Part shown: piece after piece, positions 18,510 through 63,146 of the stretch | How positions within the stretch are numbered: the stretch's first letter is position 1 | Layout: the number at the start of each line of letters is the position of its first letter | Assembly: GCF_910596095.1 (NCBI RefSeq) | Contig: NC_056538.1 | Location: forward strand, 21,748,501 to 21,812,500 | Origin: Thunnus maccoyii | Lineage: Eukaryota; Chordata; Actinopteri; Scombriformes; Scombridae | DNA length: 64,000 nucleotides | Reading direction: 5' to 3' | Made by a program: the position numbers and the translations under genes | Notes under the pieces: generated by a model | Database searches by the model: none | What the model saw: only the letters and a program-made list of their open reading frames with translations | Told to the model about the DNA's origin: nothing

Positions 18510-21500
18510 TCATTTGTGCATCATTTTCTTCTTGGAGTTTTCTTCTGGTTTCAGAATTATGATATAGCACTTTGGAGCAAAAATGCAAAAAAGGAGACCA
18601 AAGCTCGAAGTTAAAATAGCAAAGATGTGGACAGCCACCGTGTACTTCCCAGCTGTGCTCACATAAACTGGAATAAAAGTAATCCACACTGCAAAGAATA
18701 TCAGCATGCTGAAGGTGATGAACTTTGCCTCGTTAAAATTATCAGGCAACTTCCGAGCCAGAAAAGCCATTAAGAAGCACATACAGGCCAGGATGCCGAT
18801 GTATCCAAGAACGCACCAGAAGCCAACCTCTGAGCCAGTAACGCACTCGATGATGATGGTAGCACTGTGGTAATCCGTATTATTGTGGGCATGAGGTGGA
18901 CTGGTGATCAGCCAGATAAGACAGATTATTACCTGATCAATGGGGAAAACAGCAAGATGTTTATTTTAATCAGCACAGTTGAAAAGATATTTATAAATTG
19001 CTGATTTTCGGATAGTATTTTTACCTGGACAGCTGTTCCTAAAAACACACTGGCTCTCTGCTGTTTTGGTCCAAACCATTTCATGACATTACTTCCTGGC
19101 AGTGTGGACCTAAAGGCCATTAGGACCACCCCTGTCTTGGCCAGGAGGCATGAAATGCAGAGGGCAAAACTGATCCCAAATGCTGGGTACCTGATGCGGC
19201 AAAGCCAGTCTGAGGGCTCTCCGATGAACAACAGGCCAACAAGGAAACATACGGCAAGAAACACCAAGAAAAGGAAGCTCAATTCCATGTTGTTTGCCCG
19301 AACCAATGGTGTGTCTTTATACATGAAGAATAGGGCAAGGATGGAGAGGGAAATGCAAGCTCCAAGGACAGATACCACACACAGCACAATACCCATTATT
19401 TCATGGTAAGAAAGGAACTCAATTGTCTTTGGGATACAGAGATCTCTGGCTTTATTGGACCATCTGTCCTCTGAGCAGCGTGAGCATTCTAAAGAATCTG
19501 GAGAGAGAAAAGGACATTTTAATGTAGAGACTCTACCTTTAGATTAATACATGTCAAACTGTATTCATATAATTTAGGGGAATGTGTTAAAAAATGAAAG
19601 AACTCAACACACCATTTTCATAACTAACTTCTCCCTCAGCACAGGGGACACAGTCAAAACAGCAGATGGGTTCCCCCTTCCTCCTGGCGATGCGGGAACC
19701 TGGAGGACAAGTGTCACTGCAAACAGACCGGGAAGCCTGAGAGGCAGAGTTCAGCCACTCAGAAAGACACTGATTTCAATCAATGTGACTATACACTTCT
19801 GTCCCTGCAGCCTGTAGTTCAGATACAGACTCAAAGTGATGATAATTATGTGAACTAAAGAGGGAGAAACTAAGTGTGACCTATTGATGATCTGTTACAA
19901 CTACAACTGAAGACAATTAAGTGGTCATAATTTTATAAAAGAATTAACAAGATAATTACGAGGCAGTAATTGTGTAACAATCCAGTTACACAATAAGTGA
20001 ATTATTTTCATTACCAGATGATTACCAGAGCACTCAGTTTATCATCATCCAATCCCCAAAAACATAATATCATAATATGTAGCAGTATTTCTTTCTTGTA
20101 ATTGTGATTACTGTATTTCTGACATATTCTTCGTAGCAAGTCTAATGAAATTAATAGCTGTGTTTGCCCTACAAATGTGATATAAATAGCATTAATACAT
20201 GTATAAATTACCATAATGAAAATTATTTGCAAAATACAATTTTCACTTTGTAATCACCTCTGCAATTACCCATTCACAAATGTGGGTATTAAAATGGTTA
20301 TTGCAACTAAATGCAAATTGTTATCAGAATATTAGGTTATTAATGTGGTTCATGTTTACAGCATTCATATGAAATTTCAGCTTGAGTAGGTTATACTTCT
20401 CTTTGAACTCTTTCAGGGGGTACCTACATGTTTAACAATACATTATATTGCACAGTAATAAGAGCAGATTGGCTGATGTGTTGATCAACAGTACATACAA
20501 CAGTCTAAGGGGTGAACATGGCCTCAAGCCTGTTTGCAGAGAACACACCTTCTTCCCAACAGGCCACTGAATCACTGAGTCATTTATCACCAGGCTGTAT
20601 CCATCAGGCAATGAGGCATCATAGAAGCCTACTTTAACCAAATGTAGTGAGCCATCAGGCATCCTCTGCCAGTTAAGGAGATCATAGTAAGCGATGGGGT
20701 CACCATTTTGATCAAAGCTGACTTTTTCTCCAAGTGCAGAAAAATTTGTATGCTTCATGTAGTGGATGAGCTGAGAGAAGATGAAAACAGGTTAACTAAA
20801 CACAAACTATGGTGCATTTTACTTCTTTCTCAGCCTTTTAAAAAATCTACTGATCCTGAGAATATCTCTTACCTGCCAAGATTGAAAATTCTTAGGGTCT
20901 GCACAGGTGCCGTTAAGGAAAGGCCCCTGTCCAATTATGCAGTCACTCATATCTTGCAATGCATGGGCTACAAGATACACAGCCTTGTAAACATTATATG
21001 ACACTCTTAGCTGTGTTACATCAGAATAAGGAGAGTAAACATCCTTTAAATCCTCCGTCCCTTTACATGGACATCTGTCTAGGTACTTGTCGACCCCGTG
21101 AGAGTGGCTGTTCACGGACCCATTTAGCCGACAGTTAAACATCTCTTCCCAAAATTCTGCCAGGTAAGCTGAGTCATGTATGTACGATGGTCTGAGACTG
21201 ATGAGGTGTTGCTTCAACCCTGGAATTGCTTCTGCCCTCCGGATAGCAAATCCTAATGTTCCCGTCAGGAGATCTCCAAATTTTTCCCAGAGTGATTTGG
21301 CAGTGGACCAGGCCTCACTGGCAATCCACTGCAGGTCGGTTATGTTTCGACGTCTGATTTCTCTCAGAATAGTCTGAAGCTCTGATTCACTAGAAAAGTT
21401 AATGATGACCTTGGAGGATGCCACCTAAACAGTGAAAATGTAATTATTGTTAATACTGATGACAACAACTGACATGATGAGACAATCCAGTACATGCAAG

Positions 21501-23331
21501 CCCTTCTGTGAAGTTGAGAAATTACTTGATGATACTTTTTAAGGACATAGTTTATAGTGCTGTTTTAAAAACACTGTAAACTATACAGTAAAGTCTGCAT
21601 TTCCAAAAAACAGAAAGGAAAAAATGTGGCACTCTATGTCTAAAACAGAAAAATAATTAGCTCATGTGTGAATTTTATTTACAATCAATAGGCTGACAAA
21701 TGTTACTGACTTTTTTTGGGGGGGAAAGACAGTGATGATGTTTTTTAGGTGGGTGCTTTACCCACATGAAATTCCGTGCAGGAGGATAACACCTGTTTCC
21801 TCTCATGATTATACATTATACAGTGCTGCAATGCAATAACATTGCATAGTAAGGCCTGATAAATGACGACAGAGTTGAATCAACATATTTCTGAAACTAT
21901 CATAATATTTAACATTATAGGTTTCTGAAAGGTAGTATTTACTGCAGGAGTGTATATTATTTTTTCTACCCCTTGTATGCAAGAGAAATTTGCATTGACC
22001 CACAATACCTGAATATTATCAAGAAGCTCATCTACATCTTGCTGACTTAGTGCTACAGGGTAGAGGTGTGTGTAGGCAGCACACACACCATAGTGCACTG
22101 ACTCCTGGAGGAAGAGCTGGATGGCAAAGCGAGCGTATTCAGATTTAGCTCCAATGACTCCCACCCAGGTCCAGCCGAAATAGCTAACCAAGCGCGCCAG
22201 GGCTCTGATCTGGAAGGCATCACTAGGCATGGTCCGCATGAATGTAGGGAACTCTCTTTGGTTACTCAGACAGCTGCAGGATGCAAAGTAGCTCACCTGG
22301 TATTATAGCAAACAATAGTTAACCCTCTGCACACTTTGGCTCACTCAAAAGGCTGTATCAAATTTCTCCAAACAATACCACCGTCTTTAAAAGCATTCAG
22401 TGGTGCAGAATTTCTGCTTCACTTGAATTTAAATGGCAGTTTGCAGTCTAGCAATTTAACTATCCAGCTGCTTACACTGTAAGCATAATAAATGATACAT
22501 TTACAAATACAGCACTATATACTTGAAAGTCTACTCAACAGTAGCAAAATATATGGAAAAATGGCAAATGATTATACATGACAGGAGACTGATTTTACAT
22601 GGCAAAACACATACTCTATAAATATTACCAAAATCAAAGTTTAGGCAGTCTCACCAGGGGGATGTGGAAAGAACCTAGATTTCTTAGCAGAGCCATAGAC
22701 ACCCCAGAGCCAGCATCTCCTATAATTACTGGGGACACAGCCTGGCTAACGGCACCACAGCCTAAATTAGAGTCAGTGTCTATCTCCAGACCTTTGCCCC
22801 TCTCTGGTTGACCGTTCACCAGTAGTAAAGATGCTTTCAGAGACGCAGGTATGTTGTCACCGCTGTCACGGATGTGGAAACCCAGCTTAAGGTGTGGCAG
22901 GAGGTCATTGCGCTGGTTGATCTCTTTGATTGCAAAAGTCATGGTCTGCATCCAGCGCAAGGCACGGGAGCTGAAACTGTAGTGAAAAGCAGTTAATCAC
23001 ACAGCAGCACAGATATAAACATTAACGTACTATAAATACAAATATAGTAAAATAAAATGTATGTGCTACACATGGATACTATTATAAGATGCATTCAAAT
23101 ATTTACTCACTACTTATATGTACTTAGTGTTGGTTTTTTTTTGTATGTTGGAAGAGAAGAAAGAGGACTGTAGTGCAGAGGGAATAAGCCCCCTATAACT
23201 ACATCTCCATCTTCGTACAGATTATTTGTCTCCTCTTCCCCCATGAAAACGCAGTTATCCAGAGCAGCTGAGCCACTTTTGCCCCCAAAGAGAGAAAGCA
23301 ACATAAGAAGTTTGGCAGCCACCAATGCCAT
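18510..23331 (-). CDS. Gene D: V2R-like receptor with an intron inside TM4
   Basis: Eight-exon gene, 874 aa, frame intact. Exons in transcript order: 23331-23111, 22976-22655, 22296-22009, 21424-20873, 20770-20549, 19736-19613, 19497-19025 and 18932-18510. The start at 23331 has G at +4 and is followed by the signal peptide [17 protein letters not shown]; an upstream in-frame Met at 23385 is possible. VFT motifs include [17 protein letters not shown] and WIASEAW; the CRD has CCFDCVPC; the 7TM has [18 protein letters not shown]. Two introns are additional to gene C: one splits the VFT exon after ...DNIQ, and a 92-nt GT-AG intron splits the 7TM exon after ...GTAVQ in TM4. The conserved Cys of the exon 1/exon 2 junction (KCxG in paralogues) is Tyr here, beside an A9 run, so an error or early decay is possible. 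The gene is convergent with C and divergent from E. Confidence 0.88.
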
Positions 23332-23451
23332 GACTGGCCCAGGGCTTGAAGGAGAACTCCAGCTCAGTTTTGTTAAATAATTCAAAAGTTAAATATGAGC
23401 TGGCCTTTTCTGGTCACATACAAAGGAATATGATATTTCAGGACACAGCTG

Positions 23452-26624: not shown

Positions 26625-29600
26625 ATGATTCCACTTGCCTTATTTTCCTTGATTAACTATGTCTGGGTCCTCACTTTAATTTATGCCCCAATTTCCATCT
26701 TCACCTCTCTATCCCCATCTGCAGCCAAAGTGTGCACTCTTCAAAACAGCTTTGAGCCAGGCTTCGTGGCAGAGGGTGACTATGTTATCGGGGGGATCTT
26801 CCCCCTTCACTATAACCAGGAGATGCCAGACCTCAACTGCACCTACAGACCACCACCAGTGAAGTGCAATGGGTGAGTTTAATAGGTTTGGATTAGAAAT
26901 CAGATTGGGGGTATTTAACTTAATATATTCAGTTGGATGTTGTGTGATTTTGTCTCAAAGAAACATGTTGTGACATTCTTATTCTATCAAATAGATTATG
27001 CAGGTTATATTTATGTGTACCACGCAAAATAAGTTATTTCTATATACAATGATGGCTTGACCTGACCTGCACTTTGAGTTTGAGTAAGATATTTAGGTTT
27101 TAGCAAAGAAAGTTCCAAAGAGAAAAGGTTTGTCTGTAATTCCCAAATCATTTCTAAATAATTTACAAAAAGTTTCCTGAAAAAAAGTGCTCCAAGAAAC
27201 CAACCAGAGAAAAGAAAAATGAAGAAAGAAAATTATTATTCATTTTTCATTTAAAAACATAATTTCTGAGACAGTTGTCAATCATTGGAAACGTTATTCA
27301 TCTATGCTGAATTTGTATGTATGTTTGTATTCATTGTATTCATTGTTCATATACAAACATACAAACATAATTTCTGAGAGTCAAGACAGCTATCAATCAC
27401 TGGAGACTTTATTCATCTATGTTGAATTTGTATGTTTGTTTTTATAAAAATTTGTATTCATTTTGCATGTTCAGCTGGCCTACTGTTGGAAATTATTGGA
27501 TAATGAGGAGCCTGAAAAATAAAGTGTTACCAGACACATATCTTGCTAAAATATCTTGCCAAAAAAAAATCTTATGCACTTAGATGCAGAGAGATGACTA
27601 ACTTTTACCTTTAAATTTTACCTTTTCTACACCTTTGCTGTGTTCAATGTGTGTGTGCATATGTGTGTCTGCTGAGGTACAGTTTTGATCCGAGGGCTTT
27701 CCGCTGGGCTCAGACTATGAGGCTGGCAGTGGAGGAGATAAACCAGAATATGGAGCTGTTGCCCAATTACACCCTTGGCTACAAAATCTTTGATTCATGT
27801 GCATATCCACTGACCGGCCAGAGGGCTGCTCTGGCTGTGTTGAACGGTTTGAGTGAGGACCACTCTCCCATGTGCAGAGGTGCCTCTCCACTCCTCGCTG
27901 TGATCGGGGAATCTGGTTCTGCTCAGTCTATCGTGGTATCAAGAATCCTGCAGCCGTTCAGAATCCCAATGGTTAGTTAGGATAATTATGTTCTGTTATA
28001 ATAGCCCAAAAACATGTGTTCTCAAAATATTACACTTTAATCTGTTCTTTATTAACCCTTTTTTACCCAGATCAGCTACTTCTCGTCATGTGCATGTTTG
28101 ACTGACAGAATAAAATATCCAACTTTCTTCAGAGTAATCCCTAATGATGACTATCAGGTGAGGGTTTAGCTTTAGATTTAAATGGGTTTCTACAGTATGT
28201 GGTCCGGTGTTGTCCTATGAAAACCTTGTACTTCCTAAACTCAACTTGAGTGGATGATATATTAGATTACATTACAGCATTAGACAAAGTACATATTAAA
28301 AAAAGCTTTATTGATTTCTCCGTCAGTTTACTTTGTTTTGTTTTTCTAAATATCTGAGTTATGACACAATAAAATTGGCACTTTTTTCCTGATCCTAGGT
28401 GAAGGCCATTGCCCAGCTGCTGGTACGCTTCAACTGGACTTGGGTGGGGCTGGTGCGAGGGGACCATGAATATGGGCGCTTCGCTGTGCAAGGTTTACTA
28501 AGAGAGCTACAGGGAACCAAAGTGTGTGTTGCGTACCGAGAAATGATCCCTCTGCTCTACAATCGCCAGAGGGCTCTGGAGATCATGCAGGTAGACACAA
28601 ACAAACACTGAATTTGAGTTATAGAAAAAGAGAGTTTTTATTTCACCTCAAGACCTCTTATAGTATGTGCTGATGACGAATTGATCCCAATAAAGCCCAT
28701 GTGTGAATAATGTTTGTGTTATTATAGCATGTTTTAAGTTATTTTGATGGTAAAAGTTTTGGTGTGTAAAATGAGACAATCCTGGGTTAGGGTTAACTAG
28801 ACTTAGTTTTAACAGCTTTATTTTTGCTTCTTCCTTATGAAACATTTTCCTCCTAGGTAATGCGTAGCTCTACAGCAAAAGTGGTGGTGGTATTTTCGGC
28901 CGAGGGGGAGATGACACCTTTCTTGAGGGACTACATGATGCAGAACATTACTGGAATCCAGTGGGTGGCTAGCGAGGCCTGGGTCACAGCATCTGTCTTT
29001 ACAGGGAGCGAGTATTACCCCTACCTGGGGGGCACCATTGGGTTTGGCATCAGAAAAGGTCATATCTCCAGACTCAGTGACTACCTGCTGACAGTAAATC
29101 CTCAGATGTATCCCAATAACCCACTGGTGCAGGAGCTGTGGGAGGCTCTGTATGGTTGCAATCCTTCTCTGTCCTCTGGTTCCCAGCTGCCTCCCTGCTC
29201 AGGGCAGGAGTCCCTGTTGGATCAGCATTCAGCTTACATGAATACATCCAGTCCTAGAGTTGCCTATAATGTCTATAAGGCTGTATATGCAATTGCTCAT
29301 TCCCTGCACAACCTACTACTCTGTCAACCAGACCAAGGGCCTTTCCTCAACAACTCATGTGCACAAAGCAACAACATACAACCCTGGCAGGTATTGTCTA
29401 GTATTCTTATTGATTATTGCACTGTAAATCTTGCTTGAGTATTTCATATTATTTATTGTCTTTCAAGCTCCAACACTACCTCCAGGAAGTGACATTCAGC
29501 ATTGCTGGGGAGGAGGTGAACTTTGACCTGAAGGGCGACTCCATACCCTATTATGATATCATCAACTGGCAGAGGGGCACAGGCGGTAACATTGAGTTTG

Positions 29601-31651
29601 TCAACGTGGGGTTGTTTGATGGAACCAAGCCTGCCGGAGAGGAGCTGGTGATCCAGGAGGACAGGATAGTGTGGGCAGGTCATCAGAGTGAGGCAAGCTG
29701 CTCACACTGTGTTTTTACCTTCATCAGATGCCACCTGTTGAAGTTCTGTAGGTTGAGGTGGAGGTAAGTCAGGTTGACAGGACAAGCTGGATCAGGTATG
29801 AGTTTGATCAAATTTATATTAGAGATGCAAATGCTCATCATATGACCTTGAAGTCCTTGTGGCTGGATTATTGTAAAATACAAACTACGGTGTTAGTAAT
29901 GTTTCAAATGTATGCTGATTATATTCAAATGAAACACTGCATTCCAAACCACAGACACAAAAACGTTCTCTCATGTTATGGCTATTTTTTTAAACAGCAA
30001 TGGGTGAATATTCTGGAGCCACAGTTGTTCCCATTTTACCAAACTTGTTGTTAAATTGAATGTAAGATTGTAAATATCTCATAAAAAAAATAACTTAATC
30101 CAGCCCTGATTGTGAAAATCTCAGCTAAGCTTCTCTACCATTTTCTTGCTGGCTGCATTTTCTGACAAAAGAGTTCAGGAACATGTATGGGCCACAACTA
30201 ATAATTACTTTTACTATTGATTAATCAAGAACTTTTTTTGTTTGGTCTATAAAATGTCAGAAAATAGAAAAATGCCTATCACAACTTCCTAGAAAAAACA
30301 GAGAAAAACAGCAAATCCTCACATTTTAGAAGCTGGAACCTGGAAATATTGATGTTTTTCATGATAAATGGCTTGAACAATAATGTGTTTTTTTCTGTTG
30401 ATGGACTAATCAAGTAAATGACTAATCATTTCGGCACACTAATCTGACACTGCAGAGCTGAAAGACACTATTGTCTGTGTGCTTCTTAGATGCCGGTGTC
30501 TGTATGCAGTGCCAGCTGTCTTCCAGGGTCCCGGAAGGCTGTCCGTCGTGGGGAGCCTGTCTGCTGCTTTGACTGTGTACCATGTGACAGTGGCAAAATT
30601 AGCAATCAGACAAGTGAGCTTTCAACCAAGCAATAAAGATGACAATTATATCTAATATATTTTATTGCAATCAGGTGATATTTGAATATGGAATTGTTTT
30701 AAATAAACTATTCCTTTGTATTTCTTTTAAATATTTTCTTACTCTTTAGATTCCATAGAGTGCACATTTTGTCCTGAGGACTTCTGGTCAAACAACGACA
30801 GAACAGCCTGCATCCCAAAGAAAGTGGAGTTCTTGGCCTATGATTCCTTGGGTATAGCCCTAACAGTGATCTCTGTTGTGGGTGCCTGTCTTACTATAGC
30901 GGTCCTTGCAGTCTTCTTCCATCACAGAAACACAGCCATAGTCCGTGTGAATAACTCTGAACTCAGCTTCTTCATCCTGTTTGCGCTGACTCTGTGTTTC
31001 CTGTGTTCTCTTGTGTTCATTGGAGAGCCAACAGCTTGGTCCTGCATGCTGCGCCACACAGCCTTCAGCATCACATTTTCACTTTGCATCTCCTGCATAC
31101 TGGGGAAGACTCTGGTGGTGTTGGCTGCTTTCACTGCCACCAGGCCAGGAAACAACATTATGAAGTGGCTGGGGCCCAAACAGCAGAGGGCCATTATCTT
31201 TAGCTGCACTCTGATTCAGGTGATTATTTGTGCTGCCTGGCTCATTGATGCTCCCCCTTACCCATCCCGAAATACACAATATGAACGTTCAAAAATCATA
31301 CTGGAGTGTAGTGTGGGCTCTAGCCTTGCATTCTGGTGCGTTCTGGGATATATTGGTCTGCAGGCCTGTCTGTGTTTCATTCTGGCCTTTCTAGCCCGAA
31401 AGTTGCCGGGGAACTTCAATGAGGCCAAGTTTATCACTTTCAGCATGTTGATCTTTTGTGCTGTGTGGCTGGCATTCATCCCTGCTTATATCAGCTCTCC
31501 TGGAAATTATGCCGATGCAGTGGAGTCATTTGCCATTCTGGCCTCCAGCTTTGGCTTGTTGTTCTGTCTGTTCGCCCCAAAGTGTTATATTATTTTACTG
31601 AAGCCTGAAAAGAATACAAAACAGCATCTGATGGGAAAAGAAAAGAAGTGA
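26625..31651 (+). CDS. Gene E: V2R-like receptor, eight exons, one GC-AG intron
   Basis: Frame-intact receptor of 866 aa. Exons: 26625-26872, 27683-27971, 28071-28157, 28399-28590, 28857-29390, 29468-29692, 30490-30613 and 30750-31651. The signal peptide is hydrophobic from [20 protein letters not shown]. The VFT has [33 protein letters not shown] and WVASEAW; the CRD has CCFDCVPC; the 7TM has [18 protein letters not shown] and ends [13 protein letters not shown]. The usual single VFT exon is divided by introns after ...DDYQ and ...EIMQ. The intron after exon 4 can only be spliced in phase with a GC donor (GAG followed by GCAAGC), a rare but accepted class. Weak TATA-like sequence lies near 26563-26577, and AATAAA at 31877-31882. 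Divergent from D and convergent with F. The alternative is a splice-site mutation in exon 4, but coding sequence is otherwise clean. Confidence 0.9.
27253..27470. repeat. 108-bp tandem duplication in intron 1 of gene E
   Basis: Two copies start ACATAATTTCTGAGA and continue through TTATTCATCTATG and TGAATTTGTATG. They differ by several substitutions and small indels. Confidence 0.85.
30193..30440. mobile_element. dispersed fish repeat in intron 4 of gene E
   Basis: Starts near GGGCCACAACTAATAATTAC with ATTGATTAATC, contains TTTGGTCTATAAAATGTCAG and TTTTAGAAGCTGGAA, and ends with GACTAATC motifs inverted relative to the start. I recognise this as a common short fish interspersed repeat, probably a MITE. 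Family not assigned. Confidence 0.65.
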
Positions 31652-33850: not shown

Positions 33851-36800
33851 TTATCTGGGATATTTCCCAGTCATGCCTTTCTTAATGTTTCTCTCAGGCT
33901 GCAGTAAAATTATGTAACATTTGGGAACAAAAATACACAGTAAAAGTCCAAAACTAGAGGCTAAAATTGCAAATATTTCCACAGCCACAGTGAACTTCCC
34001 AGGAGAGCTGACGTAGGCTGGGATGAAAGATATCCATACAGCCCAGAAGATCAGCATACTGAAGGTGATGAGCTTCGCCTCATTGAAGGTATCAGGCAGC
34101 TTGCGTCCCAGGAAAGCCAGGAGGAGGCACAGGAAGGCCAGTAGGCCAATGTAGCCTAGGACCAGATAAAATCCAGGGGGCCATGGTTCCTTACACTCCA
34201 CAACAATCTACAGTATATTATGTCAAATAATATCAATCATTGCATAAGAGTGTGCAATAACTTACTACATATGATCAGGTTCGACTTTTTTTCTGATTTC
34301 AAGAATAAACATTAAAGCACCTATGCGTAGGCGACTCCTAGAGGCAGAATCAAAAAAGACACTGCGACCATCAAAGCATGTTACTTACTTTTCCAGTTGA
34401 GGCTTGGTATGTTGGGTTCCTGAATGGGAATGGAGGCGCGCCCAACAGCCAACCAGTACAGAGACAAACCTGGGGGTTAATAAAGGAACATGCACTGATT
34501 GTTGACAAAAGGTGTACAAATTCTTTTTATAAATTTCATCAGGTGACTCTTGGTGATCACAAATTGAGGTTAAAATAAATCCAGAGGCTTCCCACCTGAG
34601 GGGCTGTAGTGCAGAGGATCAGAGTTCTCTGTTGGGATGGACCAAACAGCTTTAGAGCCCTGGAACCAGGTGTGTTAGCCCGAAAGGCTGAGAGAACCAC
34701 AATGGTCTTAACGAGGAGGCAGGACAGACAGAGGACAAAGCTGATACCGAAGGCTGCCTGCCGGAGTCTACATGTCCACACAGATGGCTGACCAATGAAC
34801 ACCAAGGAACACAAGAAGCAGAGCTTGAGTGACAGGAGAAGCAAGAAACTTATTTCTGAGTTGTTGGCCTTGACGATGGGCGTGGAGCGGAAATGGTGAA
34901 AGACAGTGGTGATGATTGTTGTCAGGATGACACCCAGCACTGTGAGTGCCACCAGTATGATGCCCATGGTGTCATAGAAAGACAGGAATTCTTCTACCCC
35001 GGCGATGCATTTAACATTGTCTTTGTCTGACCAGTAGTATTCAGGACATTTTGTGCACTCAGTGGAACCTTTGAGGACACACAAAGTAGACAAACACTGT
35101 ATAAAGACACATACAAACTCTCACTGAACATAAAGCAGTTGACAATTGTGCTACATTTTAATGGTTTTCATGTCTCTGTGTGGTTTACATGATTTGAAAT
35201 ATATATGAATACACAAAATGTGTATGGACTACCGGTCTGATTGCTGATCTCTCCATCAGCACAGCGCAAACAGTCAAAGCAGCAGTGGGGCTGTCCTGGA
35301 CGTCTGGCCTGCCTGCTGCCAGGGGGGCATGGTGCACTACACTGGGACACAGGCACCTGGACAAAGGACCGGATAAAAGCGAAGGATGAAAAATAATATG
35401 AATTTAAAGAATGTAGCCCAGATTGTATTTTTGTATCATAAATCATTTTTGGAGGACATGCAGCACAACCTACCTGTGATTGTCCTTTTGTCCATACAAT
35501 GGAGCTTTTCTCCATCTGCAGCTGTTGTCCTAAAGGAGCTGAACCATCATAGCTTCCCACTTTGATGAATCTAAACACAAAATAAATTCTTTATATTGAT
35601 CACAAATTGCAAAAACATGCAGGTCATACAATGTAACAATATTGCTTCATAAACTATTCCCTTTCTGTCATTAGTGCATAGGTAGTTGTTGCTATAATTT
35701 TGTTCTTAAAAAGACAGTTGTTGCGCTTAGGTGTTAGGTGAAAATTTCACCTAATTTCATCATTGCTGTCCTTCTGCCAGTTAATGATGTCATAGAGAGG
35801 GACCGGCTCTCCGTTGGAATCAAAGTATACCTTCTCCTCAAACTGGGTGGTGAAATTCACTGTCTTCAGATAGTGCAGCAACTGCATGGAGGAAGAGAAA
35901 GAAAGTAAAAAAACAGAAAAGAGAGTTTAACTAAGGATAAGCCAGAAAATAAAAACTCTAGGAATAAATCCAATATTCACATGCATATTCATGTATATAT
36001 TTCATAGAAGCTTAACTTACCTGCCTGGAAGAAAATGATTTCTTTTTGTTACACATTCCTTTCAGGTCACAGCTCAACAAATGGTGCAGAGCATGGGCAA
36101 TGGCATACACAGCTTTATACACATTATAGGATATTCTGACTTGAGAAATGTCAGTGTAACTGCTATCAGTGAGCCTTAGATTCTCTGAACCAGTGCATAC
36201 AGGCTTTTCAGCAGTACTTTTATAGTTTTCATCAAATGACTGATTGATGGTGCTTGTTTTCCCCACAATAGGAATAACCAGGGACACAGACTGAGAGTCA
36301 GGTTTGTCCAGGGCACCAGTAGCATCTTCTTTTAATCTGTCTCCCAAAAACTGTAGTCTGCAGCCAAAAAGCTCTTCCCAGAACATGTTGACAAATTCCA
36401 TGCCAGGTTCAGGAGAGGGGCGGACATTCAACAAGAACTCTTTCAAGCCAGGAATATGGACTGCAGGGAAGGAGAATCCCAGCGTGCCCTCCAGAAGAGG
36501 GTGGAAGCGGGGTGAGGTCAGCAGGCTCGCAGTCACCCAGGCTTCACTGGCTACCCACTGTATCCCTGTCACATTCCTCTGAGCCAGCTGGAAAATTAAG
36601 CATAAATAGAGAAAGTTGACAAGCAAACAGATTACCACGAGCAGTAAAAAAATATATATCATGTTATCTATATTTTACGCCCCACCATGTACATTAGCTA
36701 AGATGAAGCATGCTCACCTCTGAGAGCAACTCCAACAGCTGTCCCTCTGTGGCAAAGACCACCACTACCTGTGCTGTTGACCTCTGCAGCCTGTCTGTCA

Positions 36801-46200: not shown

Positions 46201-47667
46201 AGTAATCAATCTCAGAGCAGTAAGGGAAAAAAGATTAATTGCCAGTTTGCCACTAAGATAATTAAATAGTTTTCCTGTTGTCTTTGGCCAAACATTTTTG
46301 TGGTTTTGTCAGCATAAAGTCAGTGAACACAACCAGAATCAGAGATGTAGGGACCTGCGGATAACATCAGCCACTCGTTGGATCCTGCTGTGTGGGTGGG
46401 TCCTATAAAACGATTCAGAGTATTCTACACAGATGCCCTCTTTGAGCGCTGCGTGCAGGAAAGCCGCCATGCCATTATTCCCATAGTCCGAATCCGACCG
46501 GACAGCACCTATCCAAGTCCAGCCAAAGTGTTTCACCAGTTTAGCCAGAGCGTCAGCCTGGAACTGGTCACTGGGGATTGTTCTAAAGAAACTCGGGTAC
46601 TGTTGCTTATCGGACAAGCATGCACAGGTGGCAAAGTGGCTCACCTAAAGAAAAGAAGCAAAGTGTGATTCTTTAAAGTTAACTTTAAAATTCATTTAAA
46701 GTTCAGTTCTAGGCTGTTTAACACAAGTTTAACCAGAAATTCTAAAAGCTTACTTGAGGAATGTTAAAGGACCCAATGATGCGCGACATGCCGATGGATG
46801 GCGTGGACCCAGACTCACCAACGATAGCCATCACCATACCTGATTGCGAGCACTTGTCGCCGGTGTGAAACACCGGGTCCAGCCCATTTACAAGCTGAAA
46901 TGCCAGGTGCACCGCCACGGGCACTGAGGCGCACGTGTCGTGGATCTGGTAACCGAGTCTGATGCCTGGCAGCAGCTTCGTGCTGTTGTTGATCTCCTCA
47001 ATTGCGAAAACCATTGCGCGTGAGAAGCGCAGTTCACGGGAGTCAATGCTGCACACAGACACTCACTGTTGAAATTTTCATATGATAAGGACAATTCACG
47101 ATTTCAACAGAAAACATAACTACAATGCATCTTAAACTCCTAAACTCACTAACAAGAAATTTAATTTATGCAATTAAATATTCTTACAGCAGTTGTTAAA
47201 TGCACCCATGTTATCAATTATTATCAAGAAAAATAAAAATGCATTTTTAAATAATCACACACTACACAAAATAACGTTTGCAACATTATTGTAAGCACAT
47301 CATAAAAACATTTCTATCCCCACTCATTCTTTCATCCTCCACTTCTCTCTCATACTAACCTCCCTGTGCACCTTAGTGGCTCAGGCATGCTGGTGTAGTT
47401 ATGCTTCACTGTGTGCATGTAGTAGTGTATGGAGAATACACCCCCAATAACGTAGTCACCATCCATTGAGAATGCAGGTAGACGAGCAGTACCTTGGAGC
47501 TTACATTTCACAGATGGGGCCTCAGTGACCCCAGCACCAGTCCTATGCTCTGTATGCCCTGCCCTGTGGTTCAGACCGTCCCCAGAACCGTTCAAGGCAA
47601 GAGCTGAGGGCAGCTCAAACAAACCTAGAGCCAAGCTCAGGCCAGTAATGAGAGCTGAGATCTCCAT
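43293..47667 (-). CDS. Gene H: V2R-like receptor, eight exons
   Basis: Frame-intact receptor of 881 aa. Exons in transcript order: 47667-47360, 47048-46754, 46644-46355, 46136-45841, 45060-44855, 44726-44505, 44405-44282 and 44197-43293. The signal peptide is [17 protein letters not shown]; a Gly/His-rich linker precedes the first conserved VFT cysteine. VFT motifs are [27 protein letters not shown] and WIGGESW (the usual SEAW is ESW). [11 protein letters not shown] and 7[20 protein letters not shown] are present, and the 7TM exon is undivided. Two extra introns split the VFT exon at private positions (phase 2 after ...ADVIR and phase 1 after ...CRLGK). The first has a poor donor, GTCCCT. The exon 1 donor is shifted one codon downstream of paralogues, adding a Ser ([13 protein letters not shown]). 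A TATA box lies about 45 bp upstream of the start. Confidence 0.89.
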
Positions 47668-49887: not shown

Positions 49888-49941
49888 TTTGAGTAACTGT
49901 GCATCAAGATTAGAAACAGGGGTGTAGGGAGGAGGGCAGTT

Positions 49942-52900
49942 ATGGGTGCATTTCTTGACGTATACTTTGTCTTTTATGTCTACCTGATCTTGATTTTGTT
50001 CTCGTCTTCTTTTTTCTTCTCTGTGTCTTTCTCTGTTTCCTCAATTTGTAAATTACGAAGGCAGTTTCATCTCAATGGATTGCACAAGCCTGGGGATGTT
50101 ACTCTGGGTGGGCTGATTGAGGTCCACTACACTTCAGTCTTCCCTGAATGGACATTCACTTCAGAGCCACGTCAGCCCAGCTGCACAGGGTAAGTCTCAC
50201 ACACATACAGAAAACAGTATAAGACTTTGTAGATTATTCTGGTCTGTTCAGAGTTTTAAGGTATTTGGAAAATGACATGAAAGTTCTGTGCTGAGATACA
50301 ATATGTGTCCTGTATTTATTATGGGTCTTAATAACAGATATTGAGATATTTCTACAAATTTTAAATATATCTGTAAACATTAAGATATATTAATGAATAT
50401 TTTGTACAATGCTGTAATATGGATAAGAAGGTTTTTTATTTGTACTCTCAAATTATTTTTAGACATTTTGTGTTTCAGCTTTGACACTCAAGGGTTCAGG
50501 CATGCTATGACGATGGTCTTTGCTGTTGAAGAGATCAACAGAAACTCCAAACTACTACCTAATGTGACTTTGGGATATAGTCTTTATGATAACTGTGGCG
50601 CACTTGTTATTGGATTTCGTGCTGCTTTGGCGCTGGCCAGTGGTCAAGAGGAGCAGTTTCTTCAGGAGAACTGTTCTGGGACCCCCCCAGTCCTGGGGAT
50701 TGTGGGTGATTCCTACTCAACATTTTCTATAGCCACCTCCAATGTGCTAGGTTTATTCAGACTGCCTATGGTAAACTTCACTTTCTTCTGGGCTTTTTAT
50801 ATGCTGTTTACAAGTTAATTTCATATATAAAATTTGATCAATTATATCAAATGGCTCTGATGACTTGCATGTGATACACAACCTGTGTGCATACTGTATG
50901 TCCCTTTACAGGTGAGTCATTTTGCCACATGTTCCTGCCTGAGTGATCGGAAACGGTTTCCATCCTTCTTTAGAACAATCCCAAGTGATGCTTTCCAAGT
51001 GAGACTATTAACAACATAATTGTTGCAAATAGATGTTTTACAAGAAATTAATTTGAAATAAGTCTCCCCAGTTCAACAAATCTTTTGTTTGGGGGATGAG
51101 GATATGTGCTTTGTGCAGCATGAATGAAATATATAGTTTGTAATGATAATGCTGAATCTTACATCAGTGACCGAATCACTGAAACAATATTCTCTATCCA
51201 AATAGGTGCGTGCTATGATTCAGATTCTAAAACACTTTGGCTGGACTTGGGTAGGCCTTCTTGTCAGTGATGATGACTATGGATTGCATGTTGCCCGATC
51301 CTTCCAATCTGACCTGGCCCAGTTTGGTGGAGGTTGTCTGGCTTATTCAGAGGTTTTGCCTTGGGGCAATGACCCAGCTGAACGTAGGAGGATTGTGGAA
51401 GTGATGAAGAAATCAACAGCTCGTGTGGTCATGGTGTTTGCACATGAAATCCACATTTATCAACTAATGGAGGAGGTTTGGTTAAAAATACACAGTTTTT
51501 TAAAAAAAGTATTTAGAAAAAAGAAGAAAGAAAGAAAAAAGTTTTCTGTATTTTCTATCTATCCAAATTATAACCTATCAATTATCAACAGTTCAGTTAA
51601 GACATAGCCAGTGCATCAATTAATGTTTTTTTTTTTTTTTCTCCCTGCTGCTATTAAGAAAAGAAAACTAAAGTGAGAAATTGCATATGTTATCATAGCA
51701 TAATTATAATAAAGAGTGCATAACTCAAAGCACTTAACTGTGATTGTGTCCTGGAAGTCTTTAAAAAAAATACAATACACAGGTGGTGAGGCAGAATGTG
51801 TCAGGCCTGCAGTGGATGGCTAGTGAAGCCTGGACCTCAGTTGATGTACTCCAGACCCCTGCTTTCATGCCGTACCTGGGTGGAACACTAGGCATTGCCA
51901 TCCGACGAGGAGAAATAGCAGGGCTCAAGGACTTCCTCTACAAAATACACCCTGATCAACATCATAACAACTATGGAAACAGTATAGTGAGAGTTAATCT
52001 TACAATCTGATCTGAAATTGCAGCAACAATATATTATCACTATTTCTGTTAACACTGATTTTTTTATATTTCATTTCAGGTAAATCAGTTTTGGGAATTC
52101 ATATTTCAGTGTAAATTTGCACCACCTCCAGCAAGTTGGGTGGAGGCTGGAGGAGCACTGTGCACTGGACAGGAAGATCTTCATAATGTGGAGAGTGAGC
52201 TGTTTGATGTTTCAAACCTAAGGCCAGAGTACAATGTGTACAAGGCTGTGTATGCTCTGGCGTACGCCCTTGATGACATGCTGCAGTGTATGCCAGGCAG
52301 AGGGCCTTTCATTGGGCACAGCTGTGCCACTTTACAAAGACTGGAGCCATGGCAGGTGTGATATCAATTTACACTCCACCTGTTTATGTTTCAAAATACA
52401 GCTTCAGGTACTTACTGAATTTACAGTGCAGTCAAAAGTTTGGACACCCCTTCCCATTCACTTGAATGAGAAAATGCGTCCAAACTTTTGAATGGTACTG
52501 TAGTTTATCAGTAGGAATATTATTAAAAAGAAAAAAAAAAAAAAAAGATGCTATTCTACTATCACATCAATAAACAGGCTACTGGCCTGAGGTGTCTAAT
52601 CTAATGAGTATGAAAAAAATATTTATTCTAAAGAGAATCCAATTATGTTTTATGTTAGTAATAACCAATGGCAATTAAGCAATAAGACAAAACAGCCTGA
52701 AATTCATAGTGGCTCAAGAATTGTATTATATTTTGAAAGTTTAAGTTCTTATATCTTAATTTAAACATGACAAATCAAGCAACTAGAATAAAGAATATTT
52801 TATAATGACAGAACAAATAATAAATGATAACTATACCTGACCACGATTAGAGTATTTGGATGGAGTCTGTTACATTTTTTATCTGTTGTTTAATTCATTT

Positions 52901-55246
52901 CACCCTTTTGAAGCTGGTGTATTATTTGGACAAAGTAAACTTCACCACACCATTTGGGGATCAAGTGACATTTGATGAGAATGGTGATGCCTTACCAATC
53001 TATGACGTCATGAACTGGCTGTGGCACCCTGATGGAACAACAAAGATTCAGAATGTGGGTGAGGTTAAGGAGTCAGCCAAAGGTCGAGAACTCACACTTC
53101 ATGAAGACAGAATTTTCTGGAACTTTGAATCCAAACAGGTTACTTCTGCTTATTGATTTTATACATGTTTGCCTGGCTATAACGGCAGAATAACAGCATC
53201 TAATGGTTTAGAGCTGTGACAACTCTTATTATCCCTTTAGCCACCCCGGTCAGTGTGCAGTGAGAACTGCCCCCCAGGTACTCGCATGGCCAGAAAGAAG
53301 GGGCAACCTGTCTGCTGTTTTGACTGCATACCTTGTTCTGAGGGAAAGATTAGCAATGAAACAGGTTGGTATCCTTTATAAAATAATGCTATTTATGAAT
53401 TTGACATTCAGAACTATACCTTTGGCTTGGCCAAGTGCCTTAATGAACATAATTGGTAGTGTTTGCAGGTGAAAGGCATTTTGTTCCTGTCACTGCAATA
53501 GTGACTCCTATTGGTTGGTTAGGGTATGAAAGTGCAGGGGTTGGAATCTGGGGGTGTGATAGCGTTAATCTCTATAAACAGATGCATGTGAATGCAGAAT
53601 CTGTAGGCAACAGGACAAGATTTTGGTACTGGAAGTGTTCTGGTTTCCGTTTGTAGTCCAAATAGTATTGAACAATCACGTTTGACAGGGCTTTGGTTGC
53701 ATGCGGGTCAACAGTCTGTGTGGAGAGCAAAAGAGGTGGATCGCAATGGTAGAAAGGCAATCTCAGAACCCATTGGCTATTTTAGTTTTTATTAATTTTT
53801 TCAAATTTATATGCATTCATATGCATATATCTATTTATAGAGATTAGCCAAAATATCATCTGAACCGTCTCAAGTTGCTAATCGGACTGTAAACAATGAT
53901 TGGCGCACCAAAGAGGAAGTCTTGGCCCAGATATCTGTTATCCGGATGTCCACTTGCTACACCAGAATCCTGAAAGATTAGCCGTTGCCCCCAGAGGCTA
54001 AATCATCATCAGACAGATAGCCAATGGGTTCCGAGATTGGGATAGTGTTAACTTCTATGTGTGTTGTGCCCTCCTTCTAAAGGGCCCTGGTTGGTTGAAA
54101 AGAAGCGTGAAGTGTTAGAGGTGACACATGACTGGTAAAAACTGGTAATGACAAAAGCTTTAATGCGTAGGAAACTGGCCATGCAGGAAAATACCAATCC
54201 CTTGTAACAAATGTGTTTCTTGTTTGAAGACAATGCAAATGGTCTTTTTGAAAGGTGTTCCTTTCAAAACACCCTATGTTTCTATGGAGCATAATAAAAA
54301 TATTTATCTTAACATTTTCCTCTTTTTGTCAGACTCCATGGAGTGCACGAGTTGTCCAGAAGATTTCTGGTCCAACCCCCAGCGTGACCAATGTGTTCCT
54401 AAGAAAACAGAGTTCCTCTCCTACCATGAGCCCCTGGGTATCTGCTTGACAACCGCCTCATTGCTTGGCACATCTATCTGTGCTGTTGTCCTGGGGATTT
54501 TCATCTATTATCGCAGCACACCCATGGTACGCGCCAACAATTCAGAACTGAGTTTCCTGCTCTTAATTTCACTTAAACTATGTTTCCTGTGTTCACTGCT
54601 GTTTATTGGCCGTCCCAGACTATGGACATGCCAGTTGAGACATGCAGCCTTTGGGATCAGCTTTGTTCTTTGTGTCTCATGCATCCTGGTTAAAACCATG
54701 GTGGTTCTGGCTGTGTTCAAGGCCTCCAAACCAGGGGGTGGAGCCAGTCTGAAGTGGTTTGGTGCTCTGCAGCAGAGAGGGACAGTTCTGGTTCTTACCT
54801 CTATACAGGGAGCGATTTGCACTGCTTGGCTTGTCTCCTCCTCACCAGTTCCTCATAAAAACACTCAATACCACAATGACAAGATAGTTTATGAGTGTGT
54901 AGTAGGGTCCACAATTGGTTTTGCAGTGTTACTCGGCTATATTGGCTTATTGGCCATCCTTAGTTTCTTGCTAGCATTTCTGGCAAGGAATCTTCCAGAC
55001 AACTTCAATGAAGCTAAGTTTATCACTTTCAGCATGCTGATCTTCTGTGCAGTGTGGGTGGCATTTGTCCCTGCCTACGTCAACTCACCAGGTAAATATG
55101 CAGATGCGGTGGAGGTATTTGCCATCTTGGCCTCCAGTTTTGGTCTCTTGGTGGCACTGTTTGGACCCAAATGTTACATAATCCTGCTGAGACCAGAGAG
55201 AAACACAAAGAAAGCAATCATGGGTAGAGCCACTCCCAAGACATAA
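49942..55246 (+). CDS. Gene I: V2R-like receptor, nine exons
   Basis: Frame-intact receptor of 879 aa. Exons: 49942-50189, 50479-50770, 50912-50998, 51206-51475, 51783-51986, 52080-52355, 52914-53138, 53241-53364 and 54333-55246. The VFT exon is split into four by introns after ...DAFQ, ...LMEE and ...YGNSI. The signal peptide is long and hydrophobic, followed by [11 protein letters not shown] and [11 protein letters not shown] motifs are [25 protein letters not shown] and WMASEAW. The CRD has CCFDCIPC; the 7TM has [18 protein letters not shown] and ends [14 protein letters not shown]. The donors after ...LMEE (GTTTGG) and exon 4 (GTTACT) are weak but keep phase. Intron 4b carries a 77-bp hairpin element and the last intron an approximately 1-kb expansion. 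AATAAA lies at 55374-55379. A close paralogue of J with identical exon structure. Confidence 0.91.
52422..52502. mobile_element. 77-bp Tc1/mariner-type hairpin MITE
   Basis: The element at 52424-52500 has near-perfect inverted ends, both beginning CAGT and sharing the core CAAAAGTTTGGAC. It is flanked on each side by TA (52422-52423 and 52501-52502), the expected Tc1/mariner target duplication. It lies in the intron before the exon starting 52914 of gene I. Confidence 0.85.
53450..54060. repeat. inverted-repeat insertion in the last intron of gene I
   Basis: The segment TAATCTCTATAAACAGATGC (near 53566) recurs inverted at about 53810-53846. AACCCATTGGCTAT (near 53768) recurs inverted as ATAGCCAATGGGTT (near 54017). 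GATAGCGTTAAT (near 53558) is partly repeated directly as GATAGTGTTAAC (near 54042). Gene J's equivalent intron lacks it and is shorter. I infer one or two nested MITE-like elements. Confidence 0.6.
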
Positions 55247-58707: not shown

Positions 58708-58714
58708 TATAAAA
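58708..58714 (+). promoter_or_regulatory. TATA box of gene J
   Basis: TATAAAA about 55-60 bp before the ATG at 58768, in the promoter/5' UTR block shared with I and G. Confidence 0.65.
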
Positions 58715-58767
58715 TTAAGTAACCTTGCATGAAGATAAGAAACAGGGGTGAAAGGAGGAGGGCAGTT

Positions 58768-61700
58768 ATGGGGGCATTTCTTGATGCATTTTTGCTGTTG
58801 TATGTCTACCTGATCTTGATTTTATTGTCTTACCCCTGTTTCTTTACAGAGTCTTCCTCTCTTTTCTCATCTTGTAAATTAAGGAGACAGTTTTATCTTA
58901 ATGGGATGCACAAGCCTGGTGATGTGATTCTGGGTGGGCTGTTTGAAGTCCACTACACCTCTGTCTTCCCTGAGCTGACATTTACCTCAGAGCCACATCA
59001 GCTCACCTGTCAAGGGTAAGTCTCACACATATGCAGCAGACAGCATAAATCTGTGCAGATTGATATATCGTATATATTACTTTTTAGTGGTGATTGTGAC
59101 ATTTTATATGTTAGGTTTGACATTCCAGGGTTCAGGCATGCCATGACTATGGCCTTTGCTATTGATGAGATCAACAGAAACTCCAACCTGCTACCTAATG
59201 TGACTCTAGGATACAGTCTTTATGACAACTGTGCCACACTTGTAATTGGATTCAGCGCTGCTTTGTCACTGGCCAGTGGTCGAGAGGAGCAGTTTCTGCT
59301 TCAGGAGACCTGTTTTGGGACCCCTCCAGTACTGGGGATTGTGGGTGATTCTTTCTCAACATTTTCTATCGCCACCTCTGATGTGATAGGTTTATTCAAA
59401 TTGCCCATTGTAAGTTTCCTTTCTTCAGTTTGTCCTTTTGATGTGATGTAATTTAAAAATGATAGGATACGAAAAGCATCCACACATGGCACTTTTTTAT
59501 AGATTTATTGAAGCCAGCCTCTCCAACAAGTCTTTATTTGGTAAACAGTGATTGTTTTATGTTAGATTCTAAAATGATGAACTGTTAAAATAGGCAAAAT
59601 CATTTGAATGTAATACATAACCTCTTTGCATTATGAATTTTTCTTTAAACTGTAGGTGAGTTATTTTGCCACATGTTCCTGCCTGAGTGATCGGCAACGG
59701 TTCCCCTCCTTCTTTAGAACAATCCCAAGTGATGCATTCCAGGTGAAACTGTAAAATAACAAATGCAAAATATGTTTGGCAGGAAGCATAGTGACCTTCA
59801 AAATATGCCACCCTCCAATAAAATTAATCTTTTGTCTTGTGCAGAAGTGTTGTATTTGATTTGTGCACCATTGATAAAACTATATGAATTTAGATGAAAG
59901 AGTATAATGACATCGATTAACGGTATTTTTATTACAGGATGTGAATATGTCATTTCTCACCAAAAGAATATTCCAGACTATACACTAATCCCTCTTCTCT
60001 GTATTCAAATAGGTGCGAGCTATGATTCAGATTCTAAAGCACTTCAGCTGGACCTGGGCAGGTCTGCTGGTCAGTGATGATGACTATGGACTCCATGTTG
60101 CACGATCCTTACAATCTGACCTTGCTGAGTCTGGTGGAGGTTGTCTGGCCTATTTGGAAGTTTTGCCCTGGGGTGACAACTCAGTTGAATTTAGGAGGAT
60201 TGTGGAAGTGATGAAGAAATCCACAGCTCGTGTGGTCATCGTGTTTGCACATCGGATCCATATGATTCAACTAATGGAAGAGGTGGGGATTCAAATCTCT
60301 CTATCTCCTGACTTCATCATAGGTTAAACAATGTTGACTGGTTAAAAAGTACCATAGATGACCATAGATACCATGACCATAGATTTGAGTGCAGACTCCA
60401 CTTTAAATCTATCACTTATCTCTTAATAATTTAATTATGTTGGCATGAGGTTTATAGTTTTGGTTTTATGTTTTGTAGGGATTCAGTCTTACAAAGTGTA
60501 CTGTAATTGTTCCACAGAACTCTGAAAATATATATTTAATATAATACAATACACAGGTGGTAAAGCAGAATGTGACAGGCCTGCAGTGGCTCGCCAGTGA
60601 AGCCTGGACAACAACTGCTGTGCTGCAGACACCCCACCTCATGCCGTACCTGAGTGGCACACTAGGAATTGCCATTCGCAGAGGAAAAATACCAGGCCTC
60701 AGGGATTTCCTACTGAGAATACGTCCTGACCTACACCACAACAACAGCAATGGAAATAACATGGTGAGAGTTTAATCTTGAAATCAGATCTGTATTTCAA
60801 TAATAAAATGTCCTTATTTACTACTAACATTATTACTAACACGTTCTTCTACATTACATACATTTCAGGTGAGGCAGTTTTGGGAACACACATTTCAGTG
60901 TAGATTCGCACCACCTCCAGCAGATAAGGTGGAAGCTGGGGGAGCATTATGCAATGGAGATGAAGACATAGAGAATGTGGAGACTGAGTTATTGGATGTC
61001 TCTGACCTCAGACCTGAGTACAATATTTACAAGGCAGTGTATGCCCTAGCATATGCCCTTGATGACATGCTGCAGTGTGTGCCAGGCAGAGGGCCTTTCA
61101 GTGGACGCAGCTGTGCCACTCTACAAAGACTGGAGCCATGGCAGGTGTGATAACAATATCATAAATATCAATATAAATATCAATGTTTTAATACACCTCA
61201 TTTAAACAGTAGCATGACAAATTCCAGCAAACCTGTCAAACAGAACCTCTGAAAGCATATGTCCAATCAAAGAACAGTACTTGTTTCTGGTGGAGTCCTT
61301 CCTGTCACACTATTTATGTGTTGTATTTATCTGATCCTGCCATAGCTTATGTATTACTTGGAAAAGGTCAACTTTACCACATCATTTGGTGATCAAGTGT
61401 CATTTGATGAGAATGGTGATGCCTTACCAATCTATGATATCATGAATTGGCTGTGGCTCCCTGATGGACGAACAAAAGTTCAGAGTGTGGGTGTGGTTAA
61501 GAAGTCAGCCTTCAAAGGTGAAGAGCTCAAACTGGATGAGGACAGAATCTACTGGAACTTTGACTCCAAACAGGTTACTTCTGTTTATTGTTGTTTCTGC
61601 CATAGTAATGCATACAATAACAGCATCAAATGGTGTAGAATAATAGCAACAGAACCCCTTATCCCCTTTAGCCACCCAGGTCAATTTGCAGTGAGAGCTG

Positions 61701-63146
61701 CCCTCCGGGTACCCGCATGGCCAGAAAGAAGGGGCAGCCTGTGTGCTGTTTTGACTGCATCCCTTGTTCTGAAGGAAAGTTCAGCAATGAAACAGGTTGG
61801 TATCCTTTGTAAACCTATGTGATATATTATGAATTTACATCGCTGAGTCATCCCCTTAGGAACGTTTAGGTGAAAAAGCAAATGTCCACTGCTTCAGAAT
61901 CCCAAGTACAATTCCTGTCATCAATGTGCCATGAAACATAACTGTCAGTGTTCACGGTTGGGATAGACAATGTCAAGCACAAGCAACAACTATTGTTGTC
62001 AGGGTGGCTGTGTGGAGGGAATATGCATGAACTTAACATAATATGTTATATAATATGAACATAATATGTTTATTATGCCCATCTGTCTATACTCTCCCCA
62101 GGCTGGGAGTAGAAGTTAGTAGTGACAAGGGCCACAAAAATTGGAAAACTGGCCATGCAAAATTGTGAGAAAAGTATAAAAATGGTACATAAAAAAATGC
62201 AGTAATAAAGACAATCTACCCCTTTTTCATAGATTCCATGGAGTGCAAAAGTTGTCCGGAGGATTTCTGGTCCAGCCCCCAGCGTGACCACTGTGTTCCT
62301 AAGAAAACAGAGTTCCTCTCCTACCATGAGCCCCTGGGTATCTGTTTGACAACAGCCTCATTGCTGGGCACATTTATCTGTGCTTTTGTCCTGGCGATCT
62401 TCATCTATCATCGCAGCACACCTGTGGTACGCGCCAACAATTCAGAACTGAGTTTCCTGCTCCTAATCTCACTTAAACTATGTTTTCTGTGTTCACTGCT
62501 GTTCATCGGCCGTCCCAGACTATGGACATGCCAACTGAGACATGCAGCATTTGGGATCAGCTTTGTTCTTTGTGTCTCATGTATCTTGGTTAAAACAATG
62601 GTTGTTGTGGCTGTTTTCAAGGCCTCCAGACCAAGAGGTGGAGCCAGTCTGAAATGGTTTGGTGCTGTGCAGCAGAGAGGGACAGTTCTGGCCCTTATAT
62701 CTATCCAAGCAGCAATCTGCACTGCTTGGCTTGTATCTTCCTCACCCACTCCTCATAAAAATAATCAATATCACAATGACAAGATAGTGTATGAGTGTGT
62801 AGTCGGGTCTACAATTTGGTTTGCAGTGTTACTTGGTTATATTGGCATACTGGCAATCCTTAGCTTTCTGCTAGCATTTCTGGCAAGGAATCTTCCAGAC
62901 AACTTCAATGAAGCTAAGTTCATCACTTTCAGCATGTTGATCTTCTGTGCCGTGTGGGTAGCCTTTGTCCCTGCTTATGTCAACTCACCAGGCAAATATG
63001 CAGATGCAGTGGAGGTATTTGCCATCTTGGCCTCCAGTTTTGGTCTCTTGGTGGCACTGTTTGGACCCAAATGTTACATAATCCTGTTGAGACCAGAGAG
63101 AAACACAAAGAAAGCACTCATGGGTCGAGGTACCACCAAGACATAA
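58768..63146 (+). CDS. Gene J: V2R-like receptor, nine exons
   Basis: Frame-intact receptor of 882 aa. Exons: 58768-59015, 59115-59409, 59656-59742, 60013-60282, 60557-60763, 60869-61144, 61346-61573, 61672-61795 and 62233-63146. The start [12 protein letters not shown] was chosen because it aligns with gene I; 13 further in-frame codons upstream (from 58729) overlap the conserved 5' UTR. The VFT has [43 protein letters not shown] and [18 protein letters not shown] and 7[20 protein letters not shown] are intact, ending [14 protein letters not shown]. Exon plan and phases equal gene I, with small codon indels. The donor after ...LMEE is GTGGGG and after exon 4 GTTACT, both weak. AATAAA near 63457 is distant; closer A-rich sequence at 63279-63296 may be used instead. 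Ligand unknown. Confidence 0.91.

Follow-up and report, generated by a model that had tools for sequence, protein, structure and literature searches.

Extra introns, some at recurrent positions, in a tandem array of V2R-like receptor genes of Thunnus maccoyii

The 64,000-nucleotide stretch of the Thunnus maccoyii genome analysed here (RefSeq assembly GCF_910596095.1, contig NC_056538.1, positions 21,748,501 to 21,812,500; hereafter the window) contains a tandem array of class C G protein-coupled receptor (GPCR) genes in both orientations, several of which are interrupted by introns additional to those of the six-exon plan of their family. The array order is fragment A, B, C, D (minus strand), E, F (minus), pseudogene G, H (minus), I and J (Table 1). 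Gene models were built with a purpose-written spliced protein-to-DNA aligner (GT-AG and, rarely, GC-AG introns; three phases; frameshifts permitted), queried with gene B first and then with a profile built from the remaining genes. In D, E, F, H, I and J the start and stop codons were in frame and no frameshift was found. Pseudogene G and fragment A were excluded from alignments, trees and counts.

A Pfam scan of gene C and of pieces of gene F gave matches above cut-off to ANF_receptor, NCD3G and 7tm_3 for gene C, corresponding to the flytrap, nine-cysteine and class C seven-transmembrane (7TM) domains, and two of the gene F pieces matched ANF_receptor and 7tm_3. The closest solved relative of gene C was the calcium-sensing receptor (CaSR), with 722.5 bits. 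The array genes are taken to be of the fish V2R/OlfC type on the basis of the array and the exon plan. Genes B and C share 96% protein identity. The paralogue groups are 44-50% identical among themselves and 42-44% identical to human CaSR, and are thus old and nearly star-like in their relationships.

Five canonical introns, of phases 2, 0, 0, 0 and 1, were common to all eight modelled genes and delimit six coding exons; intron 1 of gene H was displaced by a single alignment column where the alignment has a local gap. A GT donor was present in 39 of the 40 canonical introns, and a GC donor in the remaining one, a GC-AG intron of gene E which is the sole non-GT donor among the 57 introns modelled (40 canonical and 17 extra). 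In agreement with the earlier note on this DNA, made from the sequence alone, genes B and C keep the classic V2R plan, with six coding exons and no extra intron placed in either by the aligner, though the profile used for each included its near-identical twin. The plan is that described for zebrafish full-length OlfC genes, with six coding exons and strictly conserved phases (PMC1764893), and for TAS1R genes, which have six exons with the exception of TAS1R3B (PMC10781636).

On top of the canonical five, 17 extra introns at 11 positions were found in six of the eight genes (two each in D, E and H, five in F, and three each in I and J). All 17 are GT-AG introns, as the earlier note had claimed for these six genes, and the range of one to five per gene which it gave is corrected to two to five. 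Retention of the intron disrupts the reading frame in every case. The extra introns measure 78-780 nt, with a median of 207 nt versus 139 nt for the canonical introns (p 0.65). Splice scores did not differ significantly between the 17 extra introns and 35 canonical ones, from which those of gene B were excluded (Mann-Whitney U test, p 0.62 for donors and 0.11 for acceptors); scores above the 90th percentile of the window-wide background were obtained for 15/17 extra versus 33/35 canonical donors, and for 12/17 extra versus 28/35 canonical acceptors. A same-length GT-AG alternative within 30 nt existed for one extra intron only (E1, 6 nt downstream), and it was rejected on its far worse scores (donor -3.9 vs 6.0, acceptor -2.1 vs 4.3). 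Canonical exon 3 holds eight of the 11 positions (binomial p 0.008), exon 4 holds one and exon 6 two. A 111-nt stretch of gene F was also tried as an intron, rejected for its open frame and lack of a GT donor, and left out of the count; it is a 37-codon in-frame coding insert in the flytrap region, without counterpart in the other aligned genes.

It is highly improbable that these findings are explained by homology-modelling artefacts among the extra introns, or by their location in unexpressed copies. The models derive from genomic sequence alone, and the donor of H1 (-2.3) and the acceptor of I2 (-3.4) are weak, which would favour an artefact. Such an origin is hard to reconcile with the frame disruption caused by all 17 introns if retained, with the intact frames of the six genes that carry them, or with the behaviour of the aligner, which added no intron to B or C and none to the 7TM exon of E, H, I or J.

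Positions were compared in an alignment of nine rows, the eight genes and CaSR, under eight alignment settings. Three positions coincided to the nucleotide under all eight, and each had been proposed in the earlier note: that after DAFQ/DDYQ in E, I and J, that before (L/V)xxNV(T/S)G in F, I and J, and that in the middle of the fourth transmembrane helix (mid-TM4) in D and F. The E/I/J site is of phase 0 and follows a Gln conserved in 9/9 rows; the F/I/J site, also of phase 0, follows a Glu in 8/9 rows (Asp in E) and is additionally occupied in pseudogene G, as judged by flanking residues; and the D/F site follows a Gln conserved in 9/9 rows, its mid-TM4 label following CaSR anatomy. A fourth recurrence, an intron before the V-x-S-S block shared by D and E, did not hold, since the two positions are 9 nt apart under 8/8 settings, and an intron of gene H, absent from the earlier note's list for this block, lies 11 nt from that of E (8/8 settings). 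A single shared position was accordingly rejected here in favour of a cluster of three different positions in D, E and H, and such a cluster, spanning 11 nt, does not exceed what chance could produce (P 0.04 with positions drawn at random, 0.07-0.11 with proto-splice sites). Eight of the 11 positions are confined to a single lineage. In pseudogene G, a 94-nt gap may represent the I3/J3 intron, its acceptor having decayed.

The statement that no single nested series of gains accounts for the pattern stood up to analysis. On any tree the F/IJ site is incompatible with the E/IJ site and with the D/F site, and if no intron was lost, a minimum of four gains is required for the three exact sites over all 945 rooted trees of the six groups; with eight single-lineage gains the gain-only minimum is 12. 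The conflict is nevertheless smaller than had been stated, the least homoplasy being one extra gain, since the intron positions of D and E differ and a tree in which D+F and E+I+J form clades was not rejected (approximately unbiased (AU) test, p 0.376 full length, 0.555 flytrap, 0.283 7TM). An F+I+J clade was not rejected either (AU p 0.312, 0.204 and 0.395, in the same order), and a D+E clade narrowly escaped rejection (0.058, 0.064 and 0.295). Trees uniting D, E, F, I and J fitted worse, though the full-length data did not reject them (AU p 0.070, 0.068), the corresponding values being 0.274, 0.164 for the flytrap and 0.148, 0.036 for the 7TM region. The paralogue tree as a whole is poorly resolved, with poorly supported inner branches.

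The explanation preferred here, with a probability of roughly 0.6, is episodic intron gain in a teleost lineage, partly in parallel at conserved proto-splice sites. Ancestral six-exon class C receptor genes would have received spliceosomal introns separately in at least five paralogue lineages, probably after the split of this teleost lineage from the zebrafish lineage. Insertion would have favoured the proto-splice site AG/R (the stroke marks the intron position), and a conserved Gln or Glu codon before the site may preserve AG/R in several paralogues, so that separate insertions would be able to strike the same nucleotide. In the absence of both loss and exchange, parallel insertion has to account for one or more of the three coincidences: that of F with I/J if D+F and E+I+J are clades, or the remaining two if F and I/J form sister groups. 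The introns would be spliced out of the mRNA, and the receptor should be unaffected.

The state of the sites in genes that lack the intron is consistent with this proposal. AG/R was found in 10/16 such cases at recurrent sites versus 8/55 at single-lineage sites, the background in coding sequence being 683/20088 (3.4%). With one gene per group the counts were 6 or 7 of 12 versus 5 of 40 (Fisher p 0.011 or 0.003, according to the twin chosen). The extra introns themselves are flanked in their own genes by AG/R in 10/17 cases and by MAG/R in 7/17. In random-insertion tests, in which J represents the I/J pair, at least three exact coincidences among five lineages had a probability of about 0.0001 when all coding positions were equally likely, and at least one coincidence had a probability of 0.23-0.36 when proto-splice sites were drawn exon by exon. 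The earlier note had offered parallel gain at proto-splice sites, loss, or exchange between paralogues; the first of these gains support from the AG/R counts, most weakly at the F/IJ site, and exchange finds no clear support in the local identities given below.

Several results weigh against episodic, partly parallel gain. The support from proto-splice sites is weakest at the F/I/J site, which is the one most needing parallel gain: AG/R is present there in just 1/4 of the intron-lacking groups, versus 3/4 at the E/I/J site and 2 or 3/4 at the D/F site, and gene F itself reads GAG/C. When insertion was limited to proto-splice sites, the probability of at least three coincidences was 0.0024-0.076, according to the definition used, and 0.0046-0.015 for sites drawn exon by exon. 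With AG/R at 10/17 own-gene sites, moreover, these proto-splice null models are idealised. Three coincidences are thus somewhat unlikely under a proto-splice preference and one is easy, which leaves room for partial inheritance. The F2 and J2 introns, compared with shuffles that preserve base composition only, gave z 3.4, similar to the value for I2 and J2 (2.7). Finally, the direction of change, gain rather than loss, would follow from one array and from family-level literature.

That all three exact coincidences are independent insertions at codon-conserved, intron-friendly sites can be entertained only tentatively. Its standing is lowered by the single AG/R group in four at the F/I/J site and by the D/E/H cluster, which does not exceed chance. 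If all three were independent, the array would provide a direct readout of where introns may land. The D/E/H cluster would fit such a readout, yet its P of 0.04-0.11 is within chance expectation.

An inherited origin, in which the shared introns descend from an early fish V2R ancestor or from the ancestors of D+F and of E+I+J, with subsets lost in paralogues and in zebrafish, is considered unlikely. Identity of both position and phase at three sites is what common descent would produce, the tree with D+F and E+I+J clades is not rejected (AU p 0.376), the three coincidences exceed the prediction of uniform proto-splice insertion, and the F2/J2 introns are weakly similar. Descent would nonetheless require losses, since the F/IJ site and the other two shared sites conflict on any tree, and the trees that unite D, E, F, I and J fit worse, though they escape rejection at full length (AU p 0.070, 0.068). 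The six-exon structures of zebrafish full-length OlfC genes (PMC1764893) and of TAS1R genes other than TAS1R3B (PMC10781636) also speak against it; were the six-exon structure universal among zebrafish OlfC genes, loss would have to be invoked many times. Fish V2R subfamilies are reported to predate the zebrafish split (PMC1601972). If this applies to groups as divergent as those of the array, and if the uniform six-exon structure holds, all three coincidences would be parallel or the introns would have been lost in zebrafish.

The sequences of the introns gave little further indication of kinship. Shared introns compared across groups gave z -1.2 to 3.4, versus 2.7 to 11.6 for I against J at their three extra sites, and the F2/J2 hint is weak and was not repeated with F2 and I2 (z -1.2). 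As to a transposon-derived (introner-like) origin, a blastn search (E 1e-3) with the 17 extra introns found no match elsewhere in the window, and the same search missed the I1/J1 and I3/J3 pairs, which are related by global alignment. Comparison of intron pieces with coding sequences, which touches on an origin of the introns by tandem duplication, yielded only 14-15 nt matches (E1, J1).

Transfer of introns from one paralogue to another through gene conversion or unequal crossing-over is very unlikely, and gene conversion is weakened by the observations. The genes lie in a single array, in both orientations, and among 15 pairs F/J comes 1st-3rd for nucleotide identity in the neighbourhood of the intron it shares, as exchange would predict. 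That identity is, however, only 0.59-0.61, the D/F and E/J pairs rank 10th-12th and 4th-6th at theirs, and the longest exact match in alignments between groups spans 13-26 nt; the traces of an old exchange could have been lost.

Intron gain of this kind is known from other fish genes, and the V2R case is a new and unusually dense instance. A literature search found no description of extra V2R introns in fishes, most subscription papers lying outside its coverage, so that this is no proof of absence. Intron insertions have been described in the MC2R/MC5R, P2Y and CHRM3 receptors of compact-genome fishes (PMC3151243); these are GPCRs with several new introns per gene, as in the array, MC2R and MC5R share one insertion site (140c), MAG/R is mostly retained, and zebrafish lacks the introns. 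They are not class C receptors, whereas the array is of V2R type with 11 positions in one array. In slc26a1/slc26a2 of Eurypterygii (PMC12357937) a burst of gain in one fish clade produced identical or very close sites in related genes, as here; those genes encode transporters and their gains were dated on many species, whereas the array comprises tandem receptor paralogues of one species. The novel introns of ray-finned fish serpins (PMC2746811) resemble those of the array in being GT-AG, at proto-splice sites and more than one per gene; they show no similarity to complex repeats. They measure 68-178 bp, versus 78-780 nt in the array, and belong to a different gene family.

TAS1R3B of ray-finned fishes (PMC10781636) is a class C gene of a family with the six-exon plan, and gained one intron each in exons 3 and 6. 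In the array 10 of the 11 extra positions fall in these same exons, a comparison made by exon only; the two dated gains of TAS1R3B are unlike the denser array. The olfactory TAAR genes of cichlids and other fishes (PMC4415300) have an added phase-0 intron in stickleback, medaka and fugu, and not in zebrafish. Its position is nearly constant (2/95 genes differ), and a single gain followed by loss was proposed for it, unlike the array.

Introns that occupy one position in several related genes can be due to shared ancestry or to repeated insertion, and which of the two they signify is a long-standing question in gene-structure evolution. Here one array presents 11 extra positions, three of them common to old paralogues, beside copies with the ancestral plan, and the intron-lacking paralogues display the state of each site without its intron. 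If dated on the fish tree, each shared site would test parallel insertion directly. The extra introns also matter in annotation, as gene finders presuming six exons would miscall such genes; the V2R flytrap region has been noted as hard to model (PMC9018814).

Table 1. Receptor genes, extra introns and other features of the window (positions counted from its first nucleotide).
Feature	Position	Strand	Description
Fragment A	909-1910	+	7TM exon only, close to B/C 7TM exon; at left window edge, remainder outside window
V2R-like gene B	8147..11470	+	six-exon plan, no extra introns; frameshift near 11328
V2R-like gene C	13836..17150	+	six-exon plan, no frameshift; reference structure
V2R-like gene D	18510..23331	-	eight coding exons modelled; start codon provisional
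V2R-like gene E	26625..31651	+	eight coding exons modelled
V2R-like gene F	33851..38242	-	eleven coding exons modelled
V2R pseudogene G	40052..42405 (also given 39881-42487)	+	several frameshifts; I/J-like
V2R-like gene H	43293..47667	-	eight coding exons modelled
V2R-like gene I	49942..55246	+	nine coding exons modelled
V2R-like gene J	58729..63146	+	nine coding exons modelled
Extra intron D1	21425..22008	-	584 nt, phase 0, after DNIQ; 9 nt downstream of E2 position
Extra intron D2	18933..19024	-	92 nt, phase 0, mid-TM4; nucleotide position of F4
Extra intron E1	28158..28398	+	241 nt, phase 0, after DDYQ; position of I1/J1
Extra intron E2	28591..28856	+	266 nt, phase 0, after EIMQ
Extra intron F1	36919..36996	-	78 nt, phase 0, single-lineage
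Extra intron F2	36588..36717	-	130 nt, phase 0, before LAQRNVTG; position of I2/J2
Extra intron F3	35571..35750	-	180 nt, phase 2, canonical exon 4, single-lineage; five in-frame stops
Extra intron F4	34470..34595	-	126 nt, phase 0, mid-TM4; position of D2
Extra intron F5	34208..34388	-	181 nt, phase 0, single-lineage
Extra intron H1	46137..46354	-	218 nt, phase 2; 11 nt from E2, 2 nt from D1 position; weak donor
Extra intron H2	45061..45840	-	780 nt, phase 1, single-lineage
Extra intron I1	50999..51205	+	207 nt, phase 0, after DAFQ
Extra intron I2	51476..51782	+	307 nt, phase 0, before VVRQNVSG; weak acceptor
Extra intron I3	51987..52079	+	93 nt, phase 0; I/J only among full-length models
Extra intron J1	59743..60012	+	270 nt, phase 0, after DAFQ
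Extra intron J2	60283..60556	+	274 nt, phase 0, before VVKQNVTG
Extra intron J3	60764..60868	+	105 nt, phase 0; I/J only among full-length models
Pseudogene G intron	41026..41897	+	at F2/I2/J2 position by flanking residues: after HLIEE, before VVKQNVTS
Pseudogene G gap	42092-42185		94 nt
Gene E canonical intron	29693-30489	+	GC-AG
Gene F coding insert	36204-36314	-	37 codons, flytrap region
Reverse transcriptase fragment	3986-4720	-	between A and B
Minisatellite arrays (two)	4961-6178		periods 65/196 and 72/145

The single frameshift of gene B lies in its 7TM exon and may mark a young pseudogene, an allele or an assembly error. A search with the 7TM exon of gene E against viral_contigs and genome_contigs confirmed no relative, and in an Rfam scan of the window no family reached its gathering score. 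Between fragment A and gene B the window contains a reverse transcriptase fragment (Pfam RVT_1, E 2.2e-26), a retroelement remnant, and two minisatellite arrays were also detected.

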